37,768 nucleotides of DNA from an uncultured Clostridia bacterium. Lineage in GTDB: Bacteria; Bacillota; Clostridia; Oscillospirales; Acutalibacteraceae. Location of the stretch: positions 1 through 37,768 of the forward strand of contig CAMPCO010000002.1 of assembly GCA_946646305.1 (NCBI GenBank), read 5' to 3'. Positions 12,198-21,065 of the stretch are shown piece by piece. Both the position numbers and the translations under genes were made by a program. A model generated the notes under the pieces. That model worked only from the letters and a program-made list of their open reading frames with translations, was not told the DNA's origin and did not search any database. Each line of letters starts with the position of its first letter. Position 1 is the stretch's first letter.

Positions 12198-12992
12198 TTA
12201 TTTTTTTGTGTCTTTGCTTTCTTTTTGCGGTCCGTAACCGTAACCGTAGCCATAACCGTAACCGTAGCCGTAGCCATACTTATAGTTATATTTTCTGTAA
12301 CGGCCTATTCCGTATTTTTTAGATGTTGCGCTGACACCGTTCATAACCACGCCCAAAATATTGATTTCGGCAAATTTTGCGGCGGAAATCGCATGAGATA
12401 CGGCGTCTGTTGTGGAATAACCTTCCTTAACAACAAGCACAATACCGTTTGTTGCGGCGCCGACTATAAGCGCATCGGAAACAACGTTTATAGGCGGTGT
12501 ATCAACAACGATATGGTCATATTCCTTTTCCGCTTTTTCAAGCAGTTCCTTAAACTTGGGACTGCTGAGCAGTTCTGACGGGTTGGGGGGAACCTGTCCC
12601 GCGGTTAAAACATCAAGGGAAGCGGATGTGTGATTAACCGCATCTTCCAAAGAGCACATTTCAGCCAAAACATTTGAAAGGCCTCTGGAGTTTTCAAGCC
12701 TCAACTTTTTATGAACCGAACTGCGGCGCAGGTCGGCATCTATTAAAAGGGTTTTTTCGCCGAGCTGAGCAAAAGCAATGGCAATATTAACGCTGGTGGT
12801 CGATTTGCCGTCACTTACCTCAGGGCTTGTGAACGCTATAGATTTGGAATTGCTTGAGGACTGTAAAAACGAAAGATTTGTTCTTACCGTTTTATAGGCT
12901 TCAACCACGGAAAACGGAACGCGGCGGCCTTTGTTTTCGGTAACAACTTCCTGTTCTTCTGGCTTGACCTGAATGTTTTCTTCTGCCATATT
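12198..12992 (-). CDS. CpsD/CapB-family bacterial tyrosine kinase with a (YG)8 C-terminal tail
   Basis: VPFSVVEAYKTVRTNLSFLQ...SPEVSDGKSTTSVNIAIAFAQLGEKTLLIDADLRR...YDHIVVDTPPINVVSDA; tail KYNYKYGYGYGYGYGYGYGYGPQKESKDTKK. Confidence 0.93.
   Translation of the reverse strand, partial: NMAEENIQVKPEEQEVVTENKGRRVPFSVVEAYKTVRTNLSFLQSSSNSKSIAFTSPEVSDGKSTTSVNIAIAFAQLGEKTLLIDADLRRSSVHKKLRLENSRGLSNVLAEMCSLEDAVNHTSASLDVLTAGQVPPNPSELLSSPKFKELLEKAEKEYDHIVVDTPPINVVSDALIVGAATNGIVLVVKEGYSTTDAVSHAISAAKFAEINILGVVMNGVSATSKKYGIGRYRKYNYKYGYGYGYGYGYGYGYGPQKESKDTKK
12231..12278 (-). repeat. Hexameric coding repeat for (Tyr-Gly)8
   Basis: Minus strand TAT GGC TAC GGC TAC GGT TAC GGT TAT GGC TAC GGT TAC GGT TAC GGA. 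Confidence 0.9.
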
Positions 12993-15122: not shown

Positions 15123-15157
15123 TATTTTTGTAAAATTTATTGAAAGAAGGGACTGCT

Positions 15158-16522
15158 TTGAGCGAGAATACCGTTGCCGCAATATCTTCTCCTATGGGGG
15201 AAGGCGGTATTGGAGTTATAAGAATATCGGGCGAGGATGCCATATCGGTTGCCGATAAATGCTTTAAAGCAGTATCCGGCAAACCGCTCTGTTCCCTTGG
15301 CGGCTACCGTGCCGCTTTCGGAAACATTGTTTTATCTGACGGGACAAGTCTTGATGAGGCGGTTGCCCTTGTCTTTCGCGCGCCGAAAAGCTATACCGGC
15401 GAGGATGTTGTGGAACTTTCGGTTCACGGCGGAACCGAAATATTGCGCCAGGCGCTTCGCAGGGTTTTGGAATGCGGCGCTATGCCTGCCGGCGCGGGCG
15501 AGTTTACAAAACGCGCCTTTTTAAACGGAAAAATGCCACTTTCCAAAGCGGAAAGCGTTATGAGCCTTATAAGCGCTCGCGGTAATGAAGCGCTTAAAAT
15601 CTCCCGCAAGGCGGCGGGCGGCAGTATCGACCGCGCGGTAAACGAAATAACCGACCTTTTAAAGCTTACCGCCGCAGGTATCGCCACCTATTCCGATTAC
15701 CCCGATGAAGAGCTTGAGGGCGCTAAGATTTCCGATTTTGAAAAGGGGCTTTTAAAAGCAGAGGAAAAGCTTAATACCCTTATTAAAAATTACGACACGG
15801 GTAAGCTTATAAGAGAGGGCATAAACTGCGTTATAGCAGGCAAGCCGAATGTGGGCAAATCAACCCTTATGAACCTGCTTTGCGGCAGTGACCGTTCTAT
15901 TGTAACGGCGGTGCCCGGTACTACAAGGGATATTATAGAAAATTCGGTTAATTTAGGGGATATAACCCTTAATTTATCCGATACGGCAGGCATTCATGCC
16001 ACCGATGATGTAGTGGAAGCCGAGGGGGTTTCCCGCGCAAAAGAACTGCTTGACACCGCGGCGGTTATTTTAGCGGTTTTTGACGGCTCTGCGCCGCTTG
16101 ACGCGGATGACCGATCCCTTTTGGAGGATATAAGAACTAAACGCGCCATTGTAATTATTAACAAGACCGACTTAGAGCAAAGGTTATCACCAAAAGATTT
16201 TTGCGGTTTTGAATGCGTTATGCTGTCGGCAAAAGAAGGAAAAGGCGCCGATAATCTTCAAAGCGCCATAAAGCGCGTTTGCCAAATGGACAGCCTTAGC
16301 GAAAACGATGCCGTTCTTATAAACGAGCGCCAGCTTTCCTGCGTTAAGGAAGCGCAAAAATATATCGAGGAAGCCCGCACGGCACTTTTTTCGGGTGTTA
16401 CGGTGGATGCGGTGGGCGTTTGCGTTGACGGGGCGCTTGAAAGCCTTTTAACCCTTACGGGTGAGAGGGTAACAAACGCCGTTTGCGATGAGATATTTAA
16501 ACATTTTTGTGTTGGAAAATAG
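15158..16522 (+). CDS. mnmE: tRNA uridine-5-carboxymethylaminomethyl(34) synthesis GTPase MnmE
   Basis: NTVAAISSPMGEGGIGVIRISG...GKPNVGKSTLMNLL...VPGTTRD...C-terminal FCVGK. TTG start after the AGAAGGG SD. Confidence 0.97.
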   Translation: MSENTVAAISSPMGEGGIGVIRISGEDAISVADKCFKAVSGKPLCSLGGYRAAFGNIVLSDGTSLDEAVALVFRAPKSYTGEDVVELSVHGGTEILRQALRRVLECGAMPAGAGEFTKRAFLNGKMPLSKAESVMSLISARGNEALKISRKAAGGSIDRAVNEITDLLKLTAAGIATYSDYPDEELEGAKISDFEKGLLKAEEKLNTLIKNYDTGKLIREGINCVIAGKPNVGKSTLMNLLCGSDRSIVTAVPGTTRDIIENSVNLGDITLNLSDTAGIHATDDVVEAEGVSRAKELLDTAAVILAVFDGSAPLDADDRSLLEDIRTKRAIVIINKTDLEQRLSPKDFCGFECVMLSAKEGKGADNLQSAIKRVCQMDSLSENDAVLINERQLSCVKEAQKYIEEARTALFSGVTVDAVGVCVDGALESLLTLTGERVTNAVCDEIFKHFCVGK

Positions 16523-19243: not shown

Positions 19244-20041
19244 TTGACTAAAAAAATAAAACTTGTTTTTAATAAGGACCCGGCAAAAATTCACCTGCCT
19301 GACGGCAGTGACCTTTACTCGGCAAGTGATTATTGCCTTGACCCGCTGGAGGAAAACATTTCAAAAAACGGAATTATAACACCTATAATTGTAAGAACCG
19401 ATGAAAAAGGGCAATATGAACTTGTTTGCGGCAAAAAAAGGCTTATCTGCGCAAGACTTTTGCGAATGAAATCGGTGCCTTGTATAAAGCTTAATTGCAC
19501 AAGCCGTCAAGCCGCGATTTTAAGGCTGAGCGAAAGCCTCAGTGTTAAAGGCGAAAACTGTTTTGAAACGGCGGACAGTATGCAAAATCTGATAAACGAG
19601 CACAACATGTCCACCGCAAAAATTGCCGAAAGTCTCGGCATTAGCGAAAATGCGGTTAAGGAAAAACTAAAGCTTCTTGATTTTCCTTTTGAGCTAAGGC
19701 AAAAGGCGGCAGATAATCTCAGTGTGTCGCAGATGCTTTCCTTAATGCTTTTGCCAAACAATAAAATCTCTGCCGCTATGGATGAGATAATACATAACGG
19801 CCTTAACGATAAACAAACAAAAGAATATATCGCTTCCTTTTTTTCGGCAGAAAAGAAAGCGCCCGTAAGAAAGGCGGCAATAAGCGATTTAAAACTATTC
19901 TCAAACAGCATTGAAAAACTGCTTTATACCATTCAAAACGCAGGTTATGAAACCGATTTTTCAATGACAGATGAGGAAAGATACATCGATTTCAGAATAA
20001 AAGTAAAAAAGCGGGGCGAAATGCTCGACCCCGTAAGCTAA
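19244..20041 (+). CDS. ParB/Noc-like protein (ParB N-domain plus HTH), divergent CTP-binding motifs
   Basis: LDPLEENISKNGIITPIIVR...YELVCGKKRLICARLLRMKSVPCI...; HTH MSTAKIAESLGISENAVKEKLKLLDFP; position after rsmG as for noc. TTG start with SD AAAGGAG. Confidence 0.82.
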   Translation: MTKKIKLVFNKDPAKIHLPDGSDLYSASDYCLDPLEENISKNGIITPIIVRTDEKGQYELVCGKKRLICARLLRMKSVPCIKLNCTSRQAAILRLSESLSVKGENCFETADSMQNLINEHNMSTAKIAESLGISENAVKEKLKLLDFPFELRQKAADNLSVSQMLSLMLLPNNKISAAMDEIIHNGLNDKQTKEYIASFFSAEKKAPVRKAAISDLKLFSNSIEKLLYTIQNAGYETDFSMTDEERYIDFRIKVKKRGEMLDPVS

Positions 20042-20055
20042 AAAAGGTTAATTCT

Positions 20056-20150
20056 GCAAAATGCCTTTTCGTCCCCTTAAAGGCGCTTTGCGGTTTTAAT
20101 AGGCAAGAGCGGGTGACTGCCACGCCGCTGCTTTCCACCATATTCATCCC
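20056..20150 (+). other. Intergenic segment with potential stem-loops (possible 3'UTR structure or ncRNA)
   Basis: GCAAA..GCCTTT-N10-AAAGGC..TTTGC (20056-20091) and GCGGGTG-actgc-CACgCCGC (20109-20128). Confidence 0.3.
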
Positions 20151-20153
20151 CAT

Positions 20154-20189
20154 ACACAACACCCCCGTAGAAATACGGGGGTGTTGTGT
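20154..20189. repeat. 16-bp perfect inverted repeat with GAAA loop
   Basis: ACACAACACCCCCGTA-GAAA-TACGGGGGTGTTGTGT; no T-tract on either side. Confidence 0.9.
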
Positions 20190-20231
20190 TAGATTTTAGA
20201 TTATAGATGATAGATTGTAGATAATAGATAA
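20190..20231. repeat. Six tandem heptamers TAGATNN
   Basis: TAGATTT TAGATTA TAGATGA TAGATTG TAGATAA TAGATAA. Confidence 0.92.
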
Positions 20232-20254
20232 CCGTTTGCCGAGGGCAAACGGTT
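20230..20254 (-). terminator. 11-bp hairpin downstream of plsC (probable weak terminator)
   Basis: AACCGTTTGCC-gag-GGCAAACGGTT; downstream T-tract poor on both strands. Confidence 0.5.
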
Positions 20255-20261
20255 TAATCAT

Positions 20262-21065
20262 TCATTTTAAGTTTTCTATCATAATGGCTCTTGCTTCGTT
20301 TTGCAGTTCTTCACTATCAGCCGCAGAAACCTCTTCCGCCGAATAAGTCTTTAAAATATCTATGGCAATAGGACTTGACCTTAGCGGAAAGTTTTTAAAA
20401 ACATTTGCCGCGCCCTTTATCGTGCAAACCGTAAGCGGAACCTTCGCCTTTGCCGCCGCCTTAACGGCACCCGGCTTAAAGGGCAAAATCTCTCCCGTTT
20501 TGCTTCTTGTTCCCTCGGGAAAAATGCCGACACTCGCTTTATCTTTTTTTAAAAGATTTATCACATCTATAAGCGCTTTTGCGCCGCTTCTTAAATTTTC
20601 CCTATCCACAAAAACACCGCCCTGCGATGTTATAAACTGCGGAACAACGGGCATTTTGGTGGTCTCTTTCTTTGCGATAAATGCAAATTCGCATTCGGGT
20701 AAAGCCGCCATAAGGATAACGGGGTCTAAAATGCTTGTGTGGTTTGCGATTATAATAAACCTCGCGTTTTCGGGTATCAGTTCCTCTCCGCTAAGAGTTA
20801 TCTTCATCCTGAGAATTTTTGAAATAAGCGGCAAAGTCAGTTTTGCAAGCAGTTTATAATAGCCCACGCATTTAGGTGTTTTCCCCGGTTTTACAAGCAT
20901 AAGCGACCCGACAAATATAATGGCGTGAAGCAAAATAAACGCCACAAAGGCGGCTATAAACAGCACCGGCACAAGCCACCAGGAGTAGCTGTATCTCAAT
21001 ATGGGAAAAAACTTATCGAGAATGGGAACCGCCGCCGCCGAAAGGCACAAATAAACGTAAAACAT
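20262..21065 (-). CDS. plsC: 1-acyl-sn-glycerol-3-phosphate acyltransferase (PlsC family)
   Basis: IIANHTSILDPVIL (HX4D), GGVFVDRENLRSG, GIFPEGTRSKTGEILPFKPGA. Confidence 0.93.
   Translation of the reverse strand: MFYVYLCLSAAAVPILDKFFPILRYSYSWWLVPVLFIAAFVAFILLHAIIFVGSLMLVKPGKTPKCVGYYKLLAKLTLPLISKILRMKITLSGEELIPENARFIIIANHTSILDPVILMAALPECEFAFIAKKETTKMPVVPQFITSQGGVFVDRENLRSGAKALIDVINLLKKDKASVGIFPEGTRSKTGEILPFKPGAVKAAAKAKVPLTVCTIKGAANVFKNFPLRSSPIAIDILKTYSAEEVSAADSEELQNEARAIMIENLK

Follow-up and report, generated by a model that had tools for sequence, protein, structure and literature searches.

A candidate RNA family at noc, next to a sporadic heptad repeat and a gene-end hairpin, in an uncultured Clostridia bacterium

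When examining a 37,768-nucleotide stretch of DNA from an uncultured member of the Acutalibacteraceae (contig CAMPCO010000002.1; the whole stretch is called the window here), we asked what the repeats between a ParB-like gene and a convergent plsC-like gene represent. A first-pass annotation had described a 16-bp perfect inverted repeat with a GAAA loop, six TAGATNN heptads, and an 11-bp inverted repeat with a 3-nt loop, and had likened them to a centromere or iteron site. The three descriptions are exact: the arms of the first palindrome lie at 20154-20169 and 20174-20189, the heptads at 20190-20231 with a period of 7 (TRF), and the second palindrome at 20230-20254. The interpretation did not survive, as nothing supports a centromere. 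The noc-plsC stretch is most likely the junction of two convergent transcripts, where three independent things meet and no single element exists: an RNA at noc that is a candidate for a new family, a repeat of sporadic occurrence, and a hairpin at a gene end. The alternative of a convergent 3' end, which the annotation also offered, is right for both palindromes. What it overlooked is a conserved RNA ending in palindrome 1, and the locus illustrates how an eye-catching repeat can mask a conserved element next door. We consider it likely that the stretch consists of a structured RNA in the noc 3' UTR, a separate heptad repeat, and a palindrome 2 that serves as the plsC terminator. The features are as follows.

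15140-16522, mnmE, first gene of the mnmE-mnmG-rsmG-noc order
19244-20041, plus strand, noc-like gene of the ParB/Noc family (Pfam ParB_N and HTH_ParB), 3' of mnmE-mnmG-rsmG
20045-20189, plus strand, conserved structured RNA, candidate new family (covariance model match at 20045-20188; 30-sequence alignment)
20047-20100, plus strand, hairpin A from the fold, with apical loop UCGUCCCCUU (20069-20078); the loop is of the CCCCU type in 30/30 homologues
20102-20136, plus strand, hairpin B from the fold (helix 2; two-sided changes in 7/7 pairs)
20137-20155, plus strand, near-invariant single-stranded linker ACCATATTCATCCCCATAC, its last two bases inside the terminal hairpin
20154-20189, plus strand, terminal, terminator-type hairpin, identical to palindrome 1 (helix 3; two-sided changes in 13/13 pairs, 99.2% paired)
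20190-20231, plus strand, six TAGATNN heptads, a species-specific array, absent after noc in the inspected relatives except one (G090)
20230-20254, minus strand, palindrome 2, located 7 nt past the stop of plsC and probably its terminator, with a poor U-tract
20262-21065, minus strand, plsC-like acyltransferase gene (Pfam PF01553, E 2.5e-32), convergent with noc

The ParB-like gene and its neighborhood

The ParB-like gene had been called an orphan, which is wrong. It is noc-like rather than an orphan parB because its neighbor is rsmG, its top match is Noc, and a separate soj-parB pair is present on another contig (C87) of the same genome. The top NCBIfam match of its product is TIGR04285 nucleoid_noc (E 3.7e-36), and the window shares with the Noc nucleoid-occlusion locus the gene order mnmE-mnmG-rsmG-noc, although the protein scores 124.8 bits and does not reach the curated cutoff of 315 for that family. 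Inspection of neighborhoods showed the rsmG-noc order in relatives throughout the genus, and in none of the relatives examined did plsC adjoin noc. Many relatives (L025, L026, L214, and L257 among them) have a conserved Noc C-terminal end, QLKIC or QMKIC, which is missing from the protein of the window.

A conserved structured RNA behind noc

The sequence behind noc is conserved though the downstream gene is not, which identifies palindrome 1 as the hairpin that ends a conserved element. This element begins near the noc stop codon, and in many relatives its parts follow in the same order: a TCCCC stretch comes first, followed by a CGGTTTTATA-type segment, CACCATATTCATCCCCATAC, and the palindrome, the letters of which vary among species while the palindrome itself is always present. 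In the window, the region of the two palindromes and the heptads is exceptionally foldable, 8.5 standard deviations below dinucleotide shuffles. Individual folds of most homologues gave the same hairpins, namely, hairpin A with its CCCCU loop and a terminal hairpin of 15 to 20 bp, with an unpaired linker in front of the latter and, in most cases, hairpin B in between.

In a plain MAFFT alignment the stems were out of register, and RNAalifold detected no pairs; we therefore used an alignment made with a covariance model. Over 30 aligned sequences, 96.9% of cells were paired, compared with 71.0% in shuffles, and two-sided changes were seen at 25 of the 28 base pairs (mean of 15.5 in shuffles), counts which lean toward structure because the alignment was fitted to the model. 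The covariation score was 0.610 versus 0.147 in shuffles. When the partners were slid, it fell to 0.06 to 0.13 and pairing dropped to 43 to 49%.

The linker CATATTCATCCCCATA, directly 5' of the terminal hairpin, is carried by 29 of the 30 homologues, and the copy in the window is the only exact one in this genome. All 30 sequences have CCCC both in the loop of hairpin A and in the linker. The terminal hairpin is stable and G+C rich, and its length is 15 to 20 bp in all homologues. The first-pass annotation had denied palindrome 1 a U-tract, which holds only in part: on the plus strand the palindrome is followed by TTAGATTTTAG, with 5 T in 10 positions, the tract in homologues is similarly modest (mean of 5/10), and a terminator scan accepts the palindrome. 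In one genome (G036, L261:1107-1230), two copies of the linker motif lie about 108 nt apart behind noc.

We investigated the distribution of the element by searching 70 genomes of the same genus with a covariance model derived from 8 sequences. It matched 39 of the 70, including 24 of the 39 best-quality genomes; no match was found in the other 31, some of which are incomplete and some of which carry diverged remnants. There is normally one locus per genome, extra weak matches being mostly overlapping antisense, and noc was directly upstream in 30/30 inspected loci, the window included. The linker, with one of its bases changed in one genus, and the terminal hairpin recur directly behind rsmG-noc in four further genera of the family, and clear hairpins A and B were not found at noc there. 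We therefore regard the linker and hairpin as the core and hairpins A and B as an elaboration seen in this genus. Beyond the family, an order-wide model search gave nothing credible; with 8 candidates scored per genome, this absence is weak evidence. Two matches of this search fell in another family (G145 and G185), away from noc and with a different fold, and viral contigs with the linker gave weak scores only; both were taken as chance. No Rfam family matched the RNA, permissive thresholds giving chance hits only. By its position, conservation, and covariation, the RNA ending in palindrome 1 is a candidate for a new family. An RNA with such strong covariation and a linker that hardly varies, found beside a nucleoid-occlusion gene across related bacteria, offers a concrete, testable lead on regulation of or by noc.

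Possible roles of the RNA

The region upstream of the RNA showed no excess of promoter signal (mean best score of 7.16 versus 7.25 in shuffled sequence), so the RNA is most simply read as the 3' UTR of noc, which would most likely span 20045-20189. We infer that it would be transcribed together with noc and end at palindrome 1, with hairpin A and its UCCCC apical loop, hairpin B, the near-invariant linker CCAUAUUCAUCCCCAUA, and a 15- to 20-bp terminator in succession. The 3' UTR may then be retained, or it may be released as a 3'-UTR-derived small RNA. Its C-rich loop and linker could pair with G-rich mRNA sites, for example, Shine-Dalgarno regions. The TAGATNN array would have arisen or inserted right after the terminator, outside the RNA.

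RoxS/RsaE-type C-rich small RNAs of Firmicutes are like the noc RNA in size range and terminal hairpin. RoxS pairs with G-rich targets through CCCCU-type C-rich regions (PMC5419742). In RNAs of this type, as in the noc RNA, CCCC motifs occur both in loops and in stretches that are not paired. The noc RNA differs from them in its sequence, its noc-locked position, the lack of a promoter signal, and the lack of an Rfam match; the RsaE family of Rfam did not match it at E values of up to 10. The release of small RNAs from the 3' ends of mRNAs defines a recognized class (PMC9438474), of which the noc RNA, lying behind the stop codon of a single mRNA and ending at the terminator, would be a candidate member. 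In the literature searched, neither a noc-derived RNA nor an RNA downstream of noc is described. The noc 3' UTR RNA is possibly a C-rich base-pairing small RNA. We prefer such a regulatory role over a purely cis one, at roughly even odds, because of the RoxS-like CCCC motifs and the recognized class of RNAs released from 3' ends.

If the RNA acts only in cis, it would be a structured 3' UTR that stabilizes or limits the noc mRNA and whose linker is a site for a protein or RNase. Its constant position directly behind noc and the missing promoter signal agree with this, as does the outcome of our target search. Complements of the linker were sought in the genome, both exactly and with 2 mismatches. 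The best match, at the hom ribosome-binding site (L308, G000:C11:20838-20853), agrees with the linker complement at 14 of 16 bases; compared across the genus, the complementarity is not conserved and is private to this genome, and no conserved trans target emerged from these matches. However, the near-invariant, unpaired linker of 16 to 18 nt and the second CCCC in the loop look like base-pairing seeds, which plain stabilizing 3' ends would not need, and pairing of the linker with the 5' region of noc does not exceed that of shuffled linkers. Noc of Bacillus subtilis is reported to be regulated mainly post-transcriptionally (PMC7317962), which suits a cis-only role and makes either role plausible while proving neither. 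We rate the cis-only explanation as conceivable, though somewhat short of probable. Equally tentative is our proposal in its full extent, that a family-wide noc 3' UTR RNA with a 16- to 18-nt seed links chromosome-dependent division control to the post-transcriptional regulation of other genes.

The heptad array and palindrome 2

The array differs from the RNA in its distribution. In the nearest relative (G070), the RNA is present and the array is not; of the relatives inspected, only G090 carries an array immediately behind the hairpin of this noc RNA. A search for TAGATNN in runs of three units, allowing up to 2 mismatches, gave 4 overlapping matches, compared with 0.01 expected. This genome has two arrays in all. 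The other one starts at the stop codon of a gene that we take, from its sequence, to encode an M18-peptidase-like protein, and a terminator-like hairpin follows. Repeats that are not conserved beside the ParB-family gene were rejected as an iteron origin or partition site.

The adjacent ParB-family gene, and tandem repeats that with their palindrome look iteron-like by eye, had suggested a centromere bound by the ParB/Noc protein. We now hold this to be extremely improbable: the array is not conserved at noc, the only other array in the genome sits at the 3' end of the M18-peptidase gene, the window contains no parS-like sequence, and NBS-like matches are below the chance mean. Palindrome 1 also changes its sequence freely while keeping its pairing, as an RNA hairpin does. 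The suggestion of a dispersed repeat holds in part for the heptads at the genus level, with 2 loci here and up to 17 overlapping matches elsewhere. It fails for the block as a whole, which has a single complete copy in this genome, the only other resemblance being a short array plus hairpin on contig C4, and whose RNA part occurs at one locus in many species. Inverted TAGAY arrays do flank hairpin repeats in some relatives; a mobile MITE- or REP-like origin of the whole block is nonetheless very unlikely.

We regard the array as a sporadic heptanucleotide tandem repeat that is unusual in its core and position and does not belong to the RNA. A function of its own at transcript ends is possible, for example, as a three-frame stop-codon zone or an RNA-binding site. 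TAGAT is intact in all six units, and the last two positions vary. Arrays in the genus concentrate where genes and transcripts end: among 50 of them, 11 have the stop of a long open reading frame in the first three heptads, and a hairpin directly follows 11 and directly precedes 8, compared with 4.3% and 2.6% at random positions; across phyla, the very first TAG is the stop in 18 of 30 such stops (P = 0.003). However, stricter TAGAYRT arrays were found in only 8 of the 70 genus genomes (a reversed control pattern gave 0 matches), conservation of the core is a matter of hit choice because TAGAY was the search pattern, and neutral slippage limited to noncoding DNA would also accumulate at such ends. 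On balance we think a dedicated function unlikely.

Heptanucleotide tandem repeats are familiar from cyanobacteria as STRR. The TAGAY arrays share with these, with the TAACTGA repeats of Beggiatoaceae (PMC4679880), and with the heptanucleotide simple repeats of Mrazek et al. (2007), as cited in PMC4679880, the 7-bp unit, the short intergenic arrays, and a scattered phylogenetic occurrence. They differ in lying at 3' ends, whereas the known repeats lie just before start codons, and in having a TAGAY core with variable last positions, whereas units of the LSSR/STRR type are nearly identical.

Palindrome 2 is probably the terminator of plsC and may possibly act in both directions.

Five-unit arrays occur in many phyla, nearly always between genes. 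Among the matches listed, at least 5 TAGAYNN units were seen in Bacteroidota, Cyanobacteria, Clostridia, Gemmatimonadota, Nitrospirota, Vibrio, Paenibacillus, and others (L092-L209). TAGAY heptads at transcript ends in so many phyla pose a second question. In two species (L016 and L091), arrays with different unit sequences start at the stop of the same 6-phosphofructokinase-like gene and are followed by a terminator-like hairpin. In other genomes of the same genus (L067, L085, L078, L017, and L013), inverted TAGAY pairs enclose hairpin repeats of REP- or MITE-like appearance, often starting with GTAGGG. Within the window, a short tandem repeat with units of the CCGTAA type lies inside an open reading frame at 12232-12278.
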